Origin: Bacteroidota bacterium
Lineage (GTDB): Bacteria > Bacteroidota > Bacteroidia > Cytophagales > UBA9547
DNA: 50,625 bases
Assembly: GCA_004293915.1 (NCBI GenBank)
Contig: RDZG01000065.1
Span: 1 to 50,625 of the forward strand
Direction of reading: 5' to 3'
Position numbers and translations under genes: made by a program
Shown here: positions 471 to 46,752 of the stretch, one piece after another
How the letters are laid out: every line of letters begins with the position of its first letter
How positions within the stretch are numbered: position 1 is the stretch's first letter
Notes under the pieces: generated by a model
The model's database searches: none
What the model was told of the DNA's origin: nothing
The model's input: the letters and a program-made list of their open reading frames with translations, nothing else

Positions 471-769
471 TTATTTTAATCCAAGTATGGCAGTATATGC
501 TGGCATTTTAGAAGAAATAATATGTTCTATAAAATATACATCGTCAATAATGTTATATGTGATGAAATATTGCATATTGCTTTTAGGGCTATCGTAGCGG
601 GCAAAATAAGCACCATAAATTGGGATTTTACATTTTCGCAAACTCAAATTTGGAATTGTAGTAATAAAATCATAAATTTTATATACATAATTTTCTGCCA
701 ATTTTACAAAGCAATAATCATTTCATCTAACTCTAAAATTAAATCAGTACTTAATTTTATTTTTTCCAT
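471..769 (-). pseudogene. RelE/ParE-type toxin, frameshifted
   Basis: An ATG at 769 starts a frame reading MEKIKLSTDLILELDEMIIAL, which stops at TAA 706-704. The next frame continues at once with KLAENYVYKIYDFITTIP and runs to 471. Joined by one missing base the product would be 99 residues, and 299 bases fits that exactly (3x100 minus 1). The joined protein resembles small Bacteroidota ParE/RelE-family toxins: an 'LDEM' helix, 'YVYKIYDFITTIP', a central beta-sheet and a C-terminal 'YFITYNIIDDVYFIEHI'. It would act by inhibiting translation or gyrase; the target cannot be told from the sequence. Its ATG overlaps the end of the antitoxin gene by 13 bases, a layout typical of coupled toxin-antitoxin operons. 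As written the toxin is broken, unless the indel is an assembly error. Family assignment is by remembered pattern. Confidence 0.6.
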
Positions 770-981
770 AAATCTCGAACTGTGTTAAGTAAATGTTCTC
801 GACCTTCTTCAAAAGAAACATAATTTCTGTTTTTTACCATAGTTTGAAACACATCTTCTTCCATCAATCCTAATTCTACCAATGGAGCTTTTGCTTGTGG
901 ATGTTTTTTTAGGTCAATAGTAATTTTGGTAACCATTCCTTTGGCGTTTGTTTCGGTACTTATTCCTGCAATTCGTGACAT
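757..981 (-). CDS. Putative antitoxin, 74 aa
   Basis: This is a small 74-residue protein starting MSRIAGISTETNAKG. It has a short beta-rich N-terminus (MVTKITIDLKK) and a helical C-terminal part with FEEGREHLLNTVRDLWKK. This shape, and the position directly upstream of and overlapping a ParE-like toxin frame by 13 bases, fit an antitoxin of a type II system. I do not see a classic ribbon-helix-helix or HTH consensus, so DNA binding is uncertain. The N-terminus would probably dimerise and the acidic C-terminal helix would wrap the toxin. The frame is intact although the toxin frame is broken, as expected if an antitoxin persists or if the toxin indel is an assembly artefact. Confidence 0.6.
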   Translation of the reverse strand: MSRIAGISTETNAKGMVTKITIDLKKHPQAKAPLVELGLMEEDVFQTMVKNRNYVSFEEGREHLLNTVRDLWKK

Positions 982-1061
982 GGCATGAGTTGGTTATGAC
1001 TGTTACAAATTTACTAAAAAACTATAAAATTGCTTTATATAAACTATAAAAAATCAAATTT

Positions 1062-1694
1062 CTAAATATACTTTTGCTTGTTTGCCACTTCTATTGCTTC
1101 TTCTTTAGAATCTACTTGCAGAATACTATAAATCTTTTTGATATGATATTTTACATTGTCTTTTGAAACAAATATAAGTTCGGCTATACTCTGATAGCTT
1201 TTGCCTTGGGCTAATAAAGTAAGAATCTCAGTTTCTCGCTCGTTGAGAGGTGATTTTTGATTTTTGTTGAATGAATTAATCACCATTTTTGCAATTTTCA
1301 TGCTCATGGGTGCTCCTCCTTGCAAACATTCTTCAATGGAACTTTCTAGCTCTTGGTTGTCGATATTTTTTGTTAAATATCCAGTAGCACCTGCACAAAG
1401 TGCAGCAAACACATTTTCACTATTTTCAAATACAGTAATAATGATAACATCAGTTTTAGGGGAGAGTTTTTTGATTTTTTTTGTACCTTCAATGCCATCC
1501 ATACCTGGCAAATCGATGTCCATTAGTATTACTCTTGGCAAATCGTTTTTTAGGTTTTTTATCGCATCTTCACAATTAAAATAAGAACCTGCTAAACGTA
1601 ATTTAGGCACATTATTGATATATTCAGATAAAGTTTCATTTACTGTTTGATTGTCTTCTATAACCAAAATTCTTGTTTTATCAGGTGTAATCAT
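1062..1694 (-). CDS. LuxR/NarL-family response regulator
   Basis: This 210-residue protein has a CheY-like receiver domain (about residues 7-125) and a C-terminal LuxR-type HTH (about 145-205). In the receiver the acidic pair is E13-D14, the phospho-accepting Asp is D59 in VILMDIDLPG, and the conserved Lys is in 'GYLTKN'. The HTH carries the hallmark LNERETEILTLLAQGKS and VKYHIKKIYSIL. It would be phosphorylated by the kinase encoded just upstream (stop at 1733, 38 bp away) and bind DNA as a transcription factor. The target genes are not evident. A hairpin with a T-run sits between the two genes and may lower read-through. The domain assignment is secure. Confidence 0.93.
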   Translation of the reverse strand: MITPDKTRILVIEDNQTVNETLSEYINNVPKLRLAGSYFNCEDAIKNLKNDLPRVILMDIDLPGMDGIEGTKKIKKLSPKTDVIIITVFENSENVFAALCAGATGYLTKNIDNQELESSIEECLQGGAPMSMKIAKMVINSFNKNQKSPLNERETEILTLLAQGKSYQSIAELIFVSKDNVKYHIKKIYSILQVDSKEEAIEVANKQKYI

Positions 1695-1719
1695 TGTACA
1701 AAAATAAAAACTTTAACCA

Positions 1720-1747
1720 AATAAAAACTACCTTATTCGGGTAGTTT
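1720..1747 (-). terminator. Hairpin with T-run between kinase and regulator genes
   Basis: On the minus strand AAACTACC (1747-1740) pairs with GGTAGTTT (1732-1725), and the sequence then continues TTATTTGG. The stem straddles the kinase stop codon and lies just before the regulator start at 1694. It could be a partial terminator that sets the kinase:regulator ratio. The motif resembles the hairpin at 424-440. Confidence 0.35.
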
Positions 1748-2933
1748 GCAAATTAATGTACACTCAATTCCTTGTGGTTTGTTTTGCGAAATTTCAAACT
1801 GAGCATCAATTTTTTTTGCTCTATGCTGCATGTTTTTAAGTCCATTTCCTTGTTTAATTAAATCACCCGATTTTCCTATTCCATTATCGGTAATTACAAT
1901 TTGTAACTCTTTTGAAGTAATTTTAAAATTAAACCAAATTGTTTGGGCTTGTGCATGTTTAATAATATTGGTGATAGATTCTTTTACAATAGGCAAAATC
2001 TCTAGGATATAGCTTGTAGGGAGTTTTATTTCTGGCAAAATATTTGGTTCAGTTTCGATATAAAGTTTGATGTTTGAATGTTTTAAAAAATCATCTAGAT
2101 AATCTCTCAAATACATAAATAACTCGTGCGAATAATCGCTTTTTGGGTCTTTTGCCCAAATAAAATCTCTAAAATTATCATATAAATCGTTTGAACTTGC
2201 CGTTATTTGGTCTAGCACATTTTGTTTTTCGGCATCTGTCTTTTTTAGTTTTACTAGTTTTGCCAAATGACTAATTGAGGCTAATTTATTCCCAATTTTA
2301 TCGTGAAATTCTCTGGCAGTTTCTTCTCTTTGTCTTTTTTCTTCTTGAACTTTTATTACTTCTTGCAGTTTAATATTTCCTTTTATCAAAATAAACATCA
2401 TTGAAGCCAAAATTGAAAACACAAAAATCAAATTGATTAATTTGTATCGATACATTATATACATTAAAGGCTTTTATATGATAAATTTCCAATAAATAAA
2501 ATCCAATAACTGTAAAAACGGAAGCTACTAACAAAAACAATCCCAAACGCAAATCAATGAAAAGCATGCCTGACACAGATAATATCAAATACCAATATAA
2601 ATCATGTGAATAAATGCCGCCACCCAAATAAATACTTGCTGTAATCATTCCAAAACCCACAAAAGACATGATTTGAAGCACAGTGTTTATATTTCCTTTT
2701 ACTTTTATAAAATAAAGACACACACACATTACCACTAAACCCAAATAATTATAAAAGGCTTTTATATCAAGAATAACTCCATTGAAAATAAAAAAAGAGG
2801 TATAAATTGATAGAATAATTAAAAAAGAAAAAATCAACAAAACCAACATTTTGGATTTTTCGTGTTTTTCAGGATTTTCTTTGATAGAAAAATGAATAAA
2901 CCAATCTGTATATTTTGAGAGTTTTTTAATCAT
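1733..2933 (-). pseudogene. Sensor histidine kinase (NarL-partner type), frameshifted
   Basis: Two overlapping frames together make one membrane histidine kinase. The first (2933 to 2370) starts MIKKLSKYTDWFIHF and contains four to five hydrophobic segments ending near 'GFYLLEIYHIKAF'. The second (2464 to 1733) begins with the last membrane segment (LINLIFVFSILASMMFILI), then a coiled linker and a HisKA_3-type box REFHDKIGNKLASISHLAK with the phosphorylatable His. The HATPase boxes follow: VKESITNIIKHAQA (N box), ITDNGIGKSG (G1) and GNGLKNMQHRA (G2). The 1201 bases equal 3x400+1, so one net extra base between about 2420 and 2464 breaks the frame. It is the obvious partner of the LuxR regulator downstream. 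The second frame could in principle be made alone from ATG 2464. A separate two-gene design is less likely because the overlap cuts through a membrane helix series. Confidence 0.75.
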
Positions 2934-32820: not shown

Positions 32821-33927
32821 TTATAAACTTGTCAAATCTTTAATATTATCTTGGAATACAAAATTTCTATGATAGTCTAGATATTCCTGCCTATCCTCTG
32901 GATATATTCTCAAGTTGTTTTTAGCGTTAGGATTAATATTAAGTTTTTCCCAAGTATATGATGAAAGTAAAGTGCCACAAACTAAATCTCCGTTGTCTTT
33001 AAAGGTTATGTAGCCTTGGTCAAAAAGTTTGTCGTAAGTTGGAGTTAAAGCAAGTCCGTTTAAATAATCAATTGCTTGGTCTTCTCGTCCCTCCTTAATA
33101 CAAACTCTGTAAGGTTTGATATGGCTTGCAATTAGCAGTTTCTCGTCTGTTATTTTTGTGAATGGACATTGTGGCATATGCTCAATAACTTTCTTTCTGT
33201 ATTGGTCAGCACCTTGTCGCCCAATTGATTTTGTAGTTTCTCTTTTAGCTTTTTCTTCAACTTCTAGTTCGGCTGTCGTACCAATTAGTTTTGGGTGAAC
33301 AATTGACCTAAATTGATAATCTAACAATATTCTGAAATAGAAAAGTGGTTTTTGATTTTCTTTATTTCCAACTACTGGTATGAGTTTTAGAATTGATAAA
33401 TAACTAATCTTTGGTAGAACTAATTTTCTCCAAATATCCCAAATTGGTTCATCTGAACGAATATAACCTCTGCTTAATTTGTTATCTGTGAAATCCGAAA
33501 CATCATAGATGCTAAAAAATATTTTTTCATCTTCAAGTGCAGTGATGCTCTCTAAATTTTGAGTGTAAAATTCTGCAATATCAAAATTGTAGATTTGCTC
33601 TTGTTTTTGATATTCAATTCTTGCATCGTACATATATTTTAGCAAGTTTGACTTGCTAAAAAAGCAATTCCCTTCTTGAATTGGGGTAAAAATTCTTTCT
33701 CCATTTTCTATCCCTTTTCCCCAATCTGAATATTCAAAAAAATCACTTAATCTTTCACCACTTTTCCCTAAATAACCACCCACATATTTTCTTGATTCGC
33801 CATTGCCTTTGAACATTTGAAGTTTATTCTTGCGATAAATGAAACTATCCTCAGCTCTTAAATTTTGAATTGAGTCAATAATAAAGTACTCCTTGCCTTC
33901 GATATGTATTTTTTGAAAATTCTCCAT
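32821..33927 (-). CDS. HNH-type restriction endonuclease (partner of the C5 methyltransferase)
   Basis: This 368-residue protein has a C-terminal HNH_2-like nuclease domain (about 240-320): QCPFTKITDEKLLIASHIKP with H269, then YLNGLALTPTYDKLFDQGYI with N290 and D299. These are the usual metal and catalytic positions, although the third motif has Asp rather than His. The first 230 residues have no domain I know and probably recognise the target. The gene starts 3 bp after the methyltransferase stop, which strongly suggests a type II restriction-modification pair. The recognition sequence cannot be deduced. No frame damage is seen, so it may be active. Confidence 0.8.
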   Translation of the reverse strand: MENFQKIHIEGKEYFIIDSIQNLRAEDSFIYRKNKLQMFKGNGESRKYVGGYLGKSGERLSDFFEYSDWGKGIENGERIFTPIQEGNCFFSKSNLLKYMYDARIEYQKQEQIYNFDIAEFYTQNLESITALEDEKIFFSIYDVSDFTDNKLSRGYIRSDEPIWDIWRKLVLPKISYLSILKLIPVVGNKENQKPLFYFRILLDYQFRSIVHPKLIGTTAELEVEEKAKRETTKSIGRQGADQYRKKVIEHMPQCPFTKITDEKLLIASHIKPYRVCIKEGREDQAIDYLNGLALTPTYDKLFDQGYITFKDNGDLVCGTLLSSYTWEKLNINPNAKNNLRIYPEDRQEYLDYHRNFVFQDNIKDLTSL

Positions 33928-33930
33928 AAT

Positions 33931-35409
33931 TTATTTAGCAAATTTAGTAATGTCCATTTGTTTTAATAGTGCAATAAGAACATCTACTACAATGCTATTG
34001 CCTGCTTGTCTATACATTTGTGTGTCGCTAACAACTTGCTTAAAATCGTCTCGGAAACCCATTAAGCGTAAGCATTCTTTTGGTGTTAGTTTTCTAATTC
34101 GTCCGGTATGAGTAACATAATTGTCAACCCCAGCACGGTGCATTTTATGCATACTTTGTAAAAGTGGTCTTGCAACTTCAAGGTCTGTTTTTACTGATGT
34201 TTTAAAGTTTTTTGTTCCACTACTTAGAACGTAATCTCTTACCTTATCGGACAAATAATATTTTTCTTCAACTTTATTTACATCAAAAACAAAATCTGAA
34301 AATTCAGGTTCGTTACCTTGCTCAAAAACAAAATCACCGTGCCAATTAAATTGTTGATTTGCTTTTTGACAAAGTGCAACTTCTCCGTTTATTTGTGTAT
34401 AACGTTTATTTCTGTTTTTTGAACTGGTTACGAATTTTACACCTTTTTCTTTCAAGTAATATTTGCTGTCTGTGTAATCTTCTAAAAAGTCTTGCATTTT
34501 ATGTTCAAGTGCAATTGATTCTGGAAATTGAAAATCAATTGTCTTGTCTTTGAAACCAACAACAAAAATTCTTTCTCTATGCTGTGGCATTCCATAGTTT
34601 TTTGCATTTAGAACTTGGAAATAATACTTATAACCTAATTCGTCAAATGTCGCTTTAATGGTTTCAAAAGTGTTGCCATTGTCGTGATTGATTAATCCTT
34701 TTACGTTTTCAAAAATGAAAACATTGGGTTGACTTTCTTTAACAACTCTAGCAAATTCATAAAATAATGTTCCTCTTGTGTCTTCAAAACCTCTACGTTT
34801 TCCAACCATAGAAAATGATTGACAAGGGCTACCACCAACTAATAAGTCTAATTTCCCTTTGTATTTTTTTCCGTTGATGTCGTGTACATCATTGTACCAA
34901 TTGCTCTCAGAAATTTCGTAGTTTGCAAAATAACTTTGCTTTGCAAAATTATCAATGTCGCTTGCAAATTGAATTTCAGAATTTAAGTTTAATCGTTTTA
35001 ATGCGTACTCAATTGCACCAATTCCTGAAAACATTGTTCCAATTCTAATGGTTGCGTTAGGGTTTGAAAATTCTTTTTCTCTCCAGTCTTCTTGGAATTT
35101 CAAAGTCTTTTGATTAGAAATATAATACCCTAATTGTTCGTTTACTATATTTAAAACTTCTTGATATTCAGGATATGTCTTAAGTTCTTCTACAATTTTT
35201 GTTGAGTAGTGATAATTTAAAAGTGTTTTTTTGTCGGTTTGTAATATTAAAGATAAGCCTTCCAAATGCTCCAAATTTAAACATCTTTCATCCTTTTCAA
35301 TCTTGCCCAACATTGACACATCAATCTCAATATGGGAAGCAACTTTTTTTAATGGGAAACCCAATTCACTCCTACGTTGCTTTATAAATTCTCCAAATGT
35401 AACTTCCAT
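33931..35409 (-). CDS. DNA cytosine-5 methyltransferase with N-terminal XRE domain
   Basis: The protein is 492 residues from ATG 35409; an upstream TTG adds eight residues that lie in the probable operator. Residues about 5-65 form an XRE/Cro-type HTH (FIKQRRSELGFPLKKVASHI, then MLGKIEKDERCLNLEHLEGL). The methyltransferase follows: motif I IGTMFSGIGAIEYAL, motif IV VGGSPCQSFSMVGKRRGF with catalytic C196, motif VI FENVKGL, motif VIII YGMPQHRERIFVVGF and motif X YRQAGNSIVVDVL. It would methylate the target cytosine and protect DNA from the HNH enzyme encoded next. The fused HTH probably represses its own promoter, as known for other C5 methyltransferases with such extensions. It is the first gene of the operon, placed between mltD-like and purD. 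Confidence 0.93.
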   Translation of the reverse strand: MEVTFGEFIKQRRSELGFPLKKVASHIEIDVSMLGKIEKDERCLNLEHLEGLSLILQTDKKTLLNYHYSTKIVEELKTYPEYQEVLNIVNEQLGYYISNQKTLKFQEDWREKEFSNPNATIRIGTMFSGIGAIEYALKRLNLNSEIQFASDIDNFAKQSYFANYEISESNWYNDVHDINGKKYKGKLDLLVGGSPCQSFSMVGKRRGFEDTRGTLFYEFARVVKESQPNVFIFENVKGLINHDNGNTFETIKATFDELGYKYYFQVLNAKNYGMPQHRERIFVVGFKDKTIDFQFPESIALEHKMQDFLEDYTDSKYYLKEKGVKFVTSSKNRNKRYTQINGEVALCQKANQQFNWHGDFVFEQGNEPEFSDFVFDVNKVEEKYYLSDKVRDYVLSSGTKNFKTSVKTDLEVARPLLQSMHKMHRAGVDNYVTHTGRIRKLTPKECLRLMGFRDDFKQVVSDTQMYRQAGNSIVVDVLIALLKQMDITKFAK

Positions 35410-35427
35410 CTTTATTAATTTGAGTAC

Positions 35428-35485
35428 GGACAATTTAAGTCCAAAAATATGGAATACATTTTTTAGTTACAACAAATAATGTATT
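35428..35485 (-). promoter_or_regulatory. Promoter and candidate operator of the restriction-modification operon
   Basis: On the minus strand TTG (35472-35470), 20 bp, TATTTTTG (35449-35442) make a plausible promoter. The palindrome GGAC-N7-GTCC (35428-35442) overlaps its start point, and the inverted pair AATACATT/AATGTATT (35453-35460, 35478-35485) brackets the -33 side. This is where a self-repressing XRE domain would bind. Confidence 0.5.
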
Positions 35486-39325: not shown

Positions 39326-41321
39326 ATGAAAAGAAAAGAATTTATTGGAAATTTAACTGCACTTGGCATTGGTTCGCTTTTAATTGAAAATCAAGATGCT
39401 AATGCAAGTTCAAATGCAGATTTTAAATTATCAAATGAATATTTTTCAGCTGAATCTATCATAATTCCTAGCATTTTAGATAAAATCGAAAACGAATACA
39501 TTTCGTTTTCATGGATGAATGATGCCTCTGCTGAAATTATTGATAAAAAAAATCAATCAACTTGGCGAATGGGTTCAGTTGCTATACAAGAACAAGATGA
39601 GATTGAAAACAATCATGTTTGGGTGCGGCAAGACCGCTCAATTTGTGAGCAATATCCAGCTCGATTTAGAGGTGTGATGAACAATGGAGTAGCCAGTTTT
39701 ACCATGTTAAACACCGAACTTCAAGCTGTTGGAACTTTCAAATGTAAAGTTACATTGGAAAAAGAATTTCTTAATTTTATAATTTCTGATATTGATGAAA
39801 ATATTCCAAATTTGTCGTTTCCACCTCCAATAGAAAACGATTTTTTGGTTTTGCCACAAGGTGTGGGAAAATTAATAAAAGAATCAAACGACAGGAAATT
39901 TTTAACTTGGGTTGCTCATTTGAATATGCGATTTGTTGGCGGATTGAACAAAAACAATTCTGGATATTGCCTTATTTGATGATAATTTTGAAGATTCTGG
40001 AATTTTGCAATTGGGTCTGAACGTGATGCCTGTTTGGCAAAAATCTTTGGGAAAATATACTCCGAACAGAACTTTAAAATATGCTTTTACATCAGGTGGA
40101 TATGTTGGAATAGCAAAAAAATTTAGAGAATGGGCAAAGTCTAAAGGATTATTAAAATCGTTGGACGAAAAACTTAAACAAACGCCACAATTAAAATCTA
40201 TGATTGGTGGCAGACAAGTAACTTTTTATCAATGTATTCCAAAAACAAAATACTCGACTCAAGAAAACCAATTACAAAGTAGCGAAAGATTAGCAAAAGC
40301 AAAACTTGAAGGAGAAAATCCTCCTCCAAATGTGTTATTTACATATAAAGATGTGAAAGAAATAGTAACCGAATTAAAAACAAATTGGGGATTTAAAAAA
40401 GGAATGATAAATTTAAGAGGCTGGATAAAAGGTGGTTATGATTATTCTCATCCAGACATTTGGCCTCCAGAACCGCTTTTGGGTTCAATTGAAGAATTGA
40501 AAAACTTATCTAAAACTGAACCAAATTACTTTACATTATTGCATGATAATTACCAAGATATTTATGCACAAAATCCGAGTTTTCCTAAAGGAATAAATCA
40601 AGATAAAAAAGGAAGATTTATGAAAGGTGGCATGTGGGCAGGCGGACAAGCTTATATTTTAAACTCACGTGATAGTATAAAATACGCCAAACGAAACTGG
40701 GAACAAATAAAACAATTGAACACAGGCGGAATGTTTATTGATACCACTTCGGCTGTGCAACTTTACGAATCGTTTGAAAAAGGAAATACATCAACAAAAG
40801 CTGAAGATTTAAAATATAAAATGGAATTAATTACATTTTATAAAAACCAAAACCAAGTTTTTGGAAGCGAAGAGGTAGCTGATTTTGCTATAAAAGATGT
40901 TGATTTTTTTGAAAACAGACATGCCAGAAAAGCAGGAGAATCTATTCCGCTTTGGTCCTTAGTTTTTCATGATTGTGCTATGATGAGCAGATATGTGGAC
41001 AAATCGAACATGAAACTAACCGCAAAACCTTGGCTAGAGGATATGCTTTGGGGATATTTTGTGCTTTTCAGAATGGGAACCTGGGGCAAAACAGAATGGA
41101 AACACCAAAAAGAAGAGTTTATGGCTTCGTTACCAGCTGACGAATGGTTTGGCAAAATTGCAACCGCAGAAATGACAAACCATGAGTTTTTGACAACTGA
41201 TTTTGAAGTCGAAAAAACTACATTTTCAAACGGGAAAAGTATTATTGTCAATTTTGGAGAAGATTCCAAAACTGTTCAAAACCTAACTATTGAAGGGCTA
41301 TCATATAAAATTTTAGAATAA
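39326..41321 (+). pseudogene. Secreted protein, possible glycosidase-like, frameshifted in the middle
   Basis: Two frames form one protein of about 664 residues. The first (39326-39979) has a signal-like start MKRKEFIGNLTALGIGSLLI and a beta-rich domain ending SGYCLI-stop at TGA 39977. The next frame continues directly with FDDNFEDSGILQLGLNVMPVW and runs to 41321. Total 1996 = 3x665+1, so one net extra base near 39970 breaks it. The second part has motifs reminiscent of (beta/alpha)8 glycoside hydrolases of the GH101/DUF5696 sort, e.g. GMINLRGWIKGGYDYSHPD, TGGMFIDTTSA and VFGSEEVADFAI, where Asp and Glu lie at barrel-strand-like ends. I cannot name the family with confidence. It is a single-gene unit with its own -7 box and terminator. 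Confidence 0.55.
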
Positions 41322-43584: not shown

Positions 43585-46500
43585 ATGGAAATACAATTAC
43601 AAATTGCCATTGAGCAATTAAAGCAAGGTTTTAAAGGAGATATTTATACAGATGAAGTGCAACGCACTTTATATAGTACGGATGCTTCGGTCTATAAACA
43701 AAAACCACTTTTTGTAACACGTCCAAAAACTATTGCTGATATCAAGAAAATCATAATGTTTGCTACAGAACATAAAACTTCTGTCGTTCCACGTACTGCC
43801 GGGACTTCTTTGGCAGGGCAAGTGGTTGGCGAAGGAATTATTGTGGACGTATCCAAATACTGGAATCAAATTCTCGAAGTCAATAAAGAAGAAAAATGGG
43901 TTAGAGTACAACCTGGAGTTGTTCTTGATGAATTAAATAAACACTTGGAGCAATACGGCTTGTTTTTTGGACCAGAAACTAGTACTTCAAATCGTTGCAT
44001 GATGGGTGGCATGGTTGGAAACAACTCTTGTGGCTCTCATTCAGTGATTTATGGCACTACTAGAGACCACGTTTTAGAACTAAAAACAATTTTGGCTGAT
44101 GGCTCTGAAACTGTTTTTAAAGCATTGAGTCAAAGTGAGTTTATGGATAAATGCTTAGGTAGAACTTCCGCTTCTGATTTAGAAACGAATATTTACCAAC
44201 ATATTAAAGAAAATTTATCTTCAGAAATTGTTAAAAATGAGATTATAAAAGAATTTCCAAAACCAACCATCAAAAGAAGAAATACGGGCTATGCCACTGA
44301 TGAATTGTTGGATACAGAATTGTTTAGCCCTGAAAACATAAGCCCCCAAACCCCCGAAGGGGGCTTTGCTTCCTCAAAATATAATCCATATCTTACTTAT
44401 AAAAATAATTATTCTTGGAATAAAATTGGACAACTCCCCCTTCGGGGGCTGGGGGGCTTCAATTTCTGCAAACTTTTGGCAGGAAGCGAAGGTACTTTGG
44501 CATTTACAACCGAAATAAAATTGAATTTGGTTGATATTCCACCACGAATAAAAGGTGCAGTTGCGATTCATTTAAACTCCATCGATGACGCCTGCAAAGC
44601 CACTATTATCGCACTAAAATATAAACCTGGGGCAGTAGAATTATTGGATGATATCGTTTTAGAAGCATCCGCTCAAAATATTGAACAGAAAAAAAATATG
44701 TTCTTTATCAAAGATTTACCTAAAGCGGTAATCATTGTTGAGTGGGCTCGAGAAACCAAAGAAGAGATAGAAAAACTTGCTCAAGAACTTGAAAACGAAT
44801 TAAATACGCTCAATTTCGGCTATCATTTTCCACGATTGTGGGGAGCCGAAATCAGTGCTGCATGGAGTTTACGCAAAGCAGGTTTAGGACTTTTGGCTAA
44901 TGTACCTGGAGATCCAAAAGCCGTTGCCTGTATTGAAGATACAGCGGTAGCCGTAGAAGATCAGCCCGCTTTTGCGGCAGAATTTGCCCAAATCATGGCA
45001 AAATATGGTAAGACAAGTGTTTATTATGCCCATATAGGCGATGGAGAGTTGCATTTACGTCCAATTTTAGATTTGAAAAAAGCCGAAGACCGAGAACTGT
45101 TTTTCAAAATTACAGACGATGTTGCCACTTTAGTAAAAAAATATGGCGGCTCGATGAGTGGCGAACATGGCGATGGTCGTGTGCGTGGCGAATTTGTTCG
45201 TAAAATGGTGGGAGAAAAGAACTACCAACTTTTTTTAGATATAAAAAAAACGTGGGATCCAAATAATATTTTTAACCCAGGAAAGATTGTGAATTCTCCA
45301 AAAATGAATGAACAATTGCGTTATGAATCAGGACAAGAAACGCGTCAGTTTAAAACCGTTTTCAATTTTGATGAAACAGGTGGAATTTTAAGATTAGCCG
45401 AAAAATGCAATGGTTCTGGAGATTGTCGCAAAAGCAGTGTGATTGGCGGAACCATGTGTCCAAGCTATATGGCTACCAAAAGCGAGAAAGAAACTACACG
45501 AGCCAGAGCCAATATTTTACGTGAATTTTTGACCAATTCACCAAAAGAAAATGCCTTCGACCATAAAGAAATAAAAGAGGTTTATGACCTATGTTTGAGC
45601 TGTAAAGGTTGCAAAAGCGAATGCCCAAGCAATGTGGATGTGGCAACCATGAAAGCAGAATTTCTGCAACATTATTACGATGCAAACGGTGTTCCGTTTA
45701 GAACTCGAATGATAGGAAATTTTGTTAAAAGCATGGAATTGGCTTCAAAGATTCCTGCTATTTACAACTTCCTAATGTCGAATAAAATCACAGGTTCAAT
45801 TGCCAATAAAGTTATGGGCATTCATCCAAAAAGAAGCTTTCCTTTGTTGGCAAAGAAAACTCTCTACAAAACCCTTTGCAGCCCCCTAACCCCCGAGGGG
45901 GGAACTCCCATCGCTCACCCTATTCTTAAAGATTCATATGTAACTTTAACAAAATTAGGATTAAGAATTTCTCCTGTAAATTTAAATATCAGTAAAAATA
46001 GAGACTCAAAAGCCCCCTTCGGGGGTTTGGTGGCTTTTCTTTTTGCAGATGAGTTTACTAATTTTAATGATGTAGAAATAGGAATCACTACCGTAAAATT
46101 GCTCAATAAATTAGGCTATGAAGTTATTATACCTACACATGTGGAAAGTGGACGCACTTTTTTAAGCAAAGGATTGGTGCGAGATGCCCAAAAACTAGCC
46201 ATCGAAAATGTGAAATTATTGAAAGACATCATCACTTCAGAAACGCCATTGATAGGCATAGAACCTAGTTGTATATTGAGTTTTAGAGATGAATATCCAA
46301 AATTAGTACCAAAAGAATTAATTTCTGATGCTCAAAATTTGGCAAAAAATTGTCTTTTGGTAGATGAATTCTTGGCAAAAGAATTAGACAAAGGCAATAT
46401 TAAAAAAGAACAATTTACTCAAGCAGAGAAAAAAATAAAACTGCATGGACATTGCCACCAAAAAGCACTCGCTAGTGTTACTCCTACAAAAAAACTACTG

Positions 46501-46752
46501 GAATTTCCAACCAATTACAAGGTAGAAATGATTCCATCGGGCTGCTGTGGCATGGCTGGTAGTTTCGGATATGAAAAAGAGCATTTTGAAGTAAGCATGC
46601 AAGTGGGAGAATTGGTACTTTTTCCAGCTGTTCGCAAAGCAACTGATTATGAAATAGCTGCGCCTGGAACAAGTTGTAGACATCAAATACACGATGGAAC
46701 GGGCAGAAAAGCAAAGCATCCTGTGGAGATTTTGTGGGAAGCGTTGGTGTAA
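43585..46752 (+). CDS. FAD-binding and Fe-S-binding oxidoreductase (D-2-hydroxyacid dehydrogenase type) with two in-frame insertions
   Basis: This 1055-residue fused enzyme has an FAD_binding_4 domain (about 35-200; PRTAGTSLAGQVVGEGIIVDV, GGMVGNNSCGSHSV). An FAD-oxidase C-terminal domain follows (about 285-575; YYAHIGDGELHLRP, GGSMSGEHGDGRVRGEF). Two Fe-S motif regions are CNGSGDCRKS...GTMCPSY and LCLSCKGCKSECPSNVDVA. A CCG domain pair (about 890-1050) has GIEPSCILSF, LHGHCHQKAL and IPSGCCGMAGSFGYE. Relatives oxidise D-lactate or similar 2-hydroxyacids and pass electrons to quinone at the inner membrane. Codons 253-292 and 766-818 are extra segments bounded by REP-like palindromes; without them the length is 962, close to the family's usual size. 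The frame stays open, so the protein may still be made. Confidence 0.9.
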   Translation: MEIQLQIAIEQLKQGFKGDIYTDEVQRTLYSTDASVYKQKPLFVTRPKTIADIKKIIMFATEHKTSVVPRTAGTSLAGQVVGEGIIVDVSKYWNQILEVNKEEKWVRVQPGVVLDELNKHLEQYGLFFGPETSTSNRCMMGGMVGNNSCGSHSVIYGTTRDHVLELKTILADGSETVFKALSQSEFMDKCLGRTSASDLETNIYQHIKENLSSEIVKNEIIKEFPKPTIKRRNTGYATDELLDTELFSPENISPQTPEGGFASSKYNPYLTYKNNYSWNKIGQLPLRGLGGFNFCKLLAGSEGTLAFTTEIKLNLVDIPPRIKGAVAIHLNSIDDACKATIIALKYKPGAVELLDDIVLEASAQNIEQKKNMFFIKDLPKAVIIVEWARETKEEIEKLAQELENELNTLNFGYHFPRLWGAEISAAWSLRKAGLGLLANVPGDPKAVACIEDTAVAVEDQPAFAAEFAQIMAKYGKTSVYYAHIGDGELHLRPILDLKKAEDRELFFKITDDVATLVKKYGGSMSGEHGDGRVRGEFVRKMVGEKNYQLFLDIKKTWDPNNIFNPGKIVNSPKMNEQLRYESGQETRQFKTVFNFDETGGILRLAEKCNGSGDCRKSSVIGGTMCPSYMATKSEKETTRARANILREFLTNSPKENAFDHKEIKEVYDLCLSCKGCKSECPSNVDVATMKAEFLQHYYDANGVPFRTRMIGNFVKSMELASKIPAIYNFLMSNKITGSIANKVMGIHPKRSFPLLAKKTLYKTLCSPLTPEGGTPIAHPILKDSYVTLTKLGLRISPVNLNISKNRDSKAPFGGLVAFLFADEFTNFNDVEIGITTVKLLNKLGYEVIIPTHVESGRTFLSKGLVRDAQKLAIENVKLLKDIITSETPLIGIEPSCILSFRDEYPKLVPKELISDAQNLAKNCLLVDEFLAKELDKGNIKKEQFTQAEKKIKLHGHCHQKALASVTPTKKLLEFPTNYKVEMIPSGCCGMAGSFGYEKEHFEVSMQVGELVLFPAVRKATDYEIAAPGTSCRHQIHDGTGRKAKHPVEILWEALV
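44341..44460 (+). mobile_element. REP-flanked miniature element inserted in frame (120 bp)
   Basis: The left end, AGCCCCCAAACCCCCGAAGG and then GGGCT, is matched in inverted orientation by the right end CTCCCCCTTCGGGGGCTGGG and then GGGCTTC. Between them are about 68 bp of AT-rich sequence. The segment is exactly 40 codons in phase 0, giving SPQTPEGGF at its start and LPLRGLGGF at its end. It falls between FSPEN and FNFCKLLAGSEG, where relatives are contiguous. The ends look like those of the second element at 45880. Confidence 0.75.
45880..46038 (+). mobile_element. Second REP-flanked miniature element in the same gene (159 bp)
   Basis: The left end AGCCCCCTAACCCCCGAGGG (then GGGAACT) and the right end AAGCCCCCTTCGGGGGTTTG (then GTGGCTT) are related inverted repeats, sharing their core with the 44341 element. 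The interior is unrelated AT-rich DNA. It is 53 codons, phase 0, and its left end is read in the same frame as in the first element (SPLTPEGG versus SPQTPEGG). It lies just before FLFADEFTNFNDVEIG, where relatives have no such segment. Confidence 0.72.

Follow-up and report, generated by a model that had tools for sequence, protein, structure and literature searches.

Two in-frame palindromic segments in a Bacteroidota oxidoreductase gene and their likely relation to DUF559 nuclease cassettes in essential genes

The gene of a FAD-binding/4Fe-4S oxidoreductase in the window (the whole 50,625-nucleotide stretch of Bacteroidota DNA that was analysed) carries two segments of 120 and 159 bp, and in both the ends are formed by a GC-rich unit (GCCCCCnAACCCCCGAAGGGGG) in inverted orientation. 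Judged from sequence comparison, both segments are genuine, genus-specific insertions that lie in frame and have the potential to be translated. On balance, they are probably miniatures without a nuclease that belong to a family of palindromic elements inserted in frame, in which a nuclease would drive the movement. The full-length form would carry a stop-less DUF559 endonuclease of the Vsr/EDxHD type between two units and be translated within the host protein without splicing.

The host gene (43585-46752, plus strand) is intact and encodes 1055 amino acids with the domains FAD_binding_4, FAD-oxidase_C and Fer4. Its dN/dS against the congener G005 is 0.048, which indicates purifying selection. 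Segment 1 (44341-44460, plus strand) was found only in the genome of the window (G000), and segment 2 (45880-46038, plus strand) is common to G000 and G005. Both begin at a codon boundary, 756 and 2295 nt from the gene start, and encode the peptides SPQTPEGG and SPLTPEGG, respectively. The left unit of segment 1 is of type a (AAGCCCCCAAACCCCCGAAGGGGGCTTT; 44340-44367, plus strand), and the right unit (CTCCCCCTTCGGGGGCTGGGGGGCTT; 44434-44459, minus strand) encodes PLRGLGG. Segment 2 starts with a type b unit (GCCCCCTAACCCCCGAGGGGGGAACTCCCA; 45880-45909, plus strand); its right unit is of type a (46009-46036, minus strand) and encodes APFGGLVA. Without both segments the oxidoreductase has 962 residues. 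The original prediction was correct about the positions, lengths and inverted ends of the segments, their start in phase 0, the SPxTPEGG peptides and the length after removal. The oxidoreductase is present in 22 of the 39 related genomes searched. The unit-encoded peptides are absent from all 20 long homologues of other genera, where the protein alignments break at both points, and the genera without both segments include members of the same family and of the same order; the absence of the segments from homologues was thus also borne out.

The two interiors are unrelated to each other, as had been proposed. In segment 1, however, a foreign origin of the interior was rejected, since this DNA and the loop that the congeners G005 and G006 have at the corresponding position are homologous (a score as high arose in 0 of 2000 shuffles); the right unit matches a 24-nt gap in the alignment with G005 and G006. 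As the interior is local host DNA, just the two terminal GC-rich units have been added there, and a separate insertion of units fits better than one deleted cassette. This suggests that the two ends can be added independently, an outcome that simple cut-and-paste leaves unexplained. The unit pair of segment 1 folds into a single long hairpin (z = -6.2). Segment 2 shows 1 difference in 159 nt between G000 and G005; whereas its flanks show 26 in 300 and 46 in 300. Such near-identity, far above that of the flanking gene and seen between species with about 10% difference in their genes, suggests a recent transfer of segment 2 between the lineages.

The end unit is a GC-rich hairpin with an outer C-run, 2-3 nt, and then C5-nnn-G5. 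Unit counts, which rest on genome searches and retrieved stretches, gave about 22 copies in the own genome at no more than 3 mismatches, compared with 3 for a reversed-pattern control; many of these units lie in frame within essential genes, so that the ends do recur elsewhere as had been expected. The exact unit occurs in 19 of the 390 genomes of the order (14 of 129 genera) and the control in none, which excludes chance. In-frame units within the genus were found in metH and valS (two places each), purL, leuS, ileS and metG, and the unit-bearing loops vary between sister species. At one valS codon, the sister species G000 and G005 hold different unit families. Among the sense-oriented units in genes of the genus, counted with shared ancestral copies included, 11 are read in phase 0, 6 in phase 2 and none in phase 1; a start in phase 0 is therefore no general rule. 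About 26 different unit pairs, taken from several genomes, have common ends and unrelated interiors, and thus conservation concerns the unit and not a fixed 120-bp element. The view that the segments are copies of one miniature element is not supported by these pairs, and a single MITE family was likewise rejected, as the interiors do not match one another. Comparison of empty and filled sites revealed no clear target-site duplication. Two intergenic loci of G006 (L162 and L164) contain tandem unit arrays mixed with other G-rich repeats of the TCCCATAGGGAGGGGG type, in one orientation throughout.

Only a nuclease cassette was found to share these ends. In metH of the own genome, a unit pair encloses an in-frame DUF559 domain. 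The left end of this cassette is the 28-nt unit a, identical to the left unit of segment 1 and shared with the right unit of segment 2; unit b is common to the right end of the cassette and the left end of segment 2, and segment 2 is the end pair of the metH cassette in reversed order. The metH site is filled in G000 and G005, and G006, G004, G009 and G002 (one congener and three other members of the family) have a 12-aa loop there. Both DUF559 copies of the own genome are in frame within essential genes, namely metH and leuS. In leuS of G005, G000 and G006 (L167, L168 and L170), the stretch before KMSKS is almost unalignable, and the rest is 70-95% identical. The cassette has about 160 aa, mostly DUF559 and linkers, and its architecture recurs in dozens of genomes, including those of named isolates; cassettes are present, for example, in Flavobacterium cucumis DSM 18830, Winogradskyella sediminis and Marivirga aurantiaca.

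DUF559 was found in 194 of the 390 genomes of the order. Among the 150 matches listed, the open frames are bimodal in length, with 85 at 113-225 aa, 65 at 305-1645 aa and a gap between 225 and 305 aa; in a sample of the phylum, 26 of 137 frames reached at least 300 aa. At 73 of the 119 loci studied closely (about 72 without L176, a weak and doubtful match), DUF559 has at least 140 aa of host on each side, a fraction that is biased because embedded copies made up most of the query with which two thirds of these loci were retrieved; the fractions from the 150 matches and the phylum sample are less biased. The embedded hosts, assigned by comparison with identified hosts, are about 29 MetH, 10 IleS, 9 LeuS, 5 MetG, 5 RecG and 3 UvrA, together with MutS, ValS and singletons. 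In every embedded copy, the reading frame of the host runs through the insert without a stop; a spliced intron needs no such openness. A Pfam scan of eight hosts detected no Hint or other splicing domain of inteins, only DUF559/MTES_1575 and the host domains. An AlphaFold model of RecG with the cassette was too poor for use (pLDDT 45). A search of the CC-licensed literature found no description of an in-frame DUF559 insertion. At L202 of G340 (frame 751-2640, minus strand), a DUF559 cassette joins the CoA-transferase subunits scoA and scoB into one frame. In six genomes of the family f13 (L190, L194, L196, L198, L201 and L206), DUF559 is a C-terminal extension of phosphoribosylformylglycinamidine synthase.

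The DUF559 domain has the fold of homing-type nucleases. Profile comparison gave matches to I-Bth0305I, a homing endonuclease (E 9.5e-7), and to the DUF559 structure 3HRL; fold comparison, for which Foldseek was also run, gave Z scores of 15.4 for 3HRL, 11.1 for I-Bth0305I and 9.8 for Vsr. The core residues do not vary, whether the copy is embedded or free. The embedded domains are under purifying selection, with dN/dS of 0.072 (metH) and 0.055 (leuS) between G000 and G005. The DUF559 copies group according to host site (39 changes, compared with 77.5 after shuffling), which may partly be due to vertical descent. The main metH site has at least three origins of DUF559, and the recG copies form one clade. 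No clear dip in divergence, of the kind that a co-conversion tract might leave, surrounds the metH cassette; a tight dip was seen at segment 2 only.

The units and the nuclease are linked by position. DUF559 is accompanied by flanking inverted repeats in 57% of the embedded copies, 83% of the one-sided and 86% of the free-standing ones, compared with 2% of displaced positions in the same loci (n=1131), 1% of unrelated loci and 26% of Y1_Tnp genes. The C-run and hairpin architecture is present on both sides at 37 of 118 DUF559 loci, whereas only 1 of 1131 controls has it. In 31 of 72 embedded cassettes, no inverted repeat exceeded the threshold. Co-occurrence of the exact unit and DUF559 across the order is weak (14 of 19 genomes with the unit and 180 of 371 others, p 0.036). 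Among unit-rich genomes, G067 and G039 gave no DUF559 match and G130 only a partial one. None of the miniature interiors was recognised as DUF559. These gaps, the weak co-occurrence and the cassettes without a repeat count against a nuclease-driven model.

The elements might be compared with several known systems. The Rickettsia palindromic elements (RPE) are short elements that lie in frame in protein genes and are kept as peptides (PMC10969869). The present segments are similar in that palindrome-bounded DNA is inserted in frame into otherwise conserved, unrelated genes and persists as peptides. However, only the ends of about 25-28 nt are conserved here; whereas an RPE family is defined by conservation of the whole element of about 100-150 bp. 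The host phylum, Bacteroidota, is also different, and the present ends are shared by a full-length form that bears a nuclease. To our knowledge, the RPE have no counterpart of the DUF559 nuclease cassette. The likeness to RPE noted in the original prediction thus applies to the behaviour, but RPE are not the closest explanation, since the interiors are not conserved and the DUF559 cassette shares the ends; the cassette is more likely the parent system of the window segments than an RPE-type element.

Like the REP/REPIN-RAYT systems, the units are GC-rich hairpins that occur singly or as inverted, fold-back pairs and are tied to a nuclease gene flanked by them. Unlike in those systems, the partner is a DUF559 nuclease of the PD-(D/E)XK/Vsr type, whereas RAYT is a Y1 HUH tyrosine transposase, and the elements enter coding sequence in frame. 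A link to RAYT/IS200 was rejected, as 30 Y1_Tnp loci, located in seven of the eight unit-bearing genomes searched, have no unit at a distance of up to about 1.5 kb. Known EDxHD homing endonucleases are free-standing or lie in self-splicing introns (PMC3943268). By profile and fold, DUF559 has the catalytic domain of the EDxHD enzyme I-Bth0305I and of Vsr, and conserved genes are likewise invaded at recurrent sites; however, the domain here is fused into the host protein and has palindromic ends. Inteins are also nuclease-bearing, in-frame inserts of conserved proteins, but the splicing domain that they contain was not detected in the eight hosts scanned here.

The units might instead be autonomous palindromes of the REP or RPE kind, spread by host repair or by another transposase, with DUF559 as a passenger that is often found between repeats. 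We consider this unlikely, though it deserves attention. Many units are single or lie in the intergenic tandem arrays of G006, two genomes hold units without DUF559, paired copies have unrelated interiors, and the units of segment 1 flank host DNA; all of these would agree with autonomous units. However, inverted pairs accompany 57-86% of the DUF559 copies and only 1-2% of the controls, and they belong to many unit families. Moreover, units are near none of the 30 Y1_Tnp loci in unit-rich genomes, and DUF559 is itself conserved and clustered by site.

It is more doubtful still that the embedded DUF559 domains and the loop units are domesticated, immobile parts of the hosts, for example for regulation or DNA contact. 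Presence is patchy at the same site within one genus, the metH site was occupied several times, hosts such as MetH and the tRNA synthetases are unrelated, and one valS codon holds different unit families in sister species; whereas the purifying selection on embedded DUF559, the DNA enzymes among the hosts (RecG, MutS and UvrA) and the single recG clade could be taken in favour of domestication. An assembly or pseudogene artefact of the own genome is hardly credible. Although the window is a contig from a draft assembly of 156 contigs, segment 2 is also found in the independent congener genome G005, the gene is open and under purifying selection, and dozens of genomes show the same architecture.

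The reading as nuclease-less relatives of the DUF559 cassettes would work as follows. Two inverted units would make one element that folds back on itself. The structure, family membership and selection are established by the comparisons above. Mobility and a cutting mechanism are proposed in addition, in which the DUF559 nuclease would cut the empty allele or the DNA near hairpins, and repair of the break would copy in the whole cassette or the hairpin ends alone. The survivors would be the in-frame insertions in tolerant surface loops, and such elements would therefore accumulate in long essential enzymes (MetH, IleS, LeuS, ValS, MetG and PurL). The window oxidoreductase would be a carrier of two such footprints.

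Selfish elements are commonly assumed to be tolerated in essential genes only with the help of splicing. Here, a nuclease-sized domain lies inside MetH, tRNA synthetases, RecG, MutS and UvrA with no splicing module detected, and loops of the same enzymes have been remodelled by smaller hairpin footprints that differ from one sister species to another. These observations suggest that selfish DNA can reside in working proteins in a manner not described so far. There is perhaps an even chance that the elements represent a new mobile class, in which palindrome-ended, stop-less cassettes of a homing-type nuclease and their nuclease-less miniatures invade essential genes in frame, are tolerated there unspliced and are widespread in Bacteroidota. 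If the nuclease does drive insertion, this would be a direct route from mobile DNA to new protein segments. The reading would give a testable role to DUF559, a family that is very common but whose function is unknown; it would also explain odd peptides in Bacteroidota proteins, such as SPLTPEGG and PLRGLGG.

Some other features of the window were also observed. An ORF that resembles a cytosine-5 methyltransferase and has a helix-turn-helix at its N-terminus adjoins an HNH-like ORF (32821-35433, minus strand), and from their translations the two look like a restriction-modification pair. Two adjoining ORFs in different frames (39326-41321) resemble one split gene, possibly the result of a frameshift. 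A transposase-like ORF is located close to the contig end (50010-50447).
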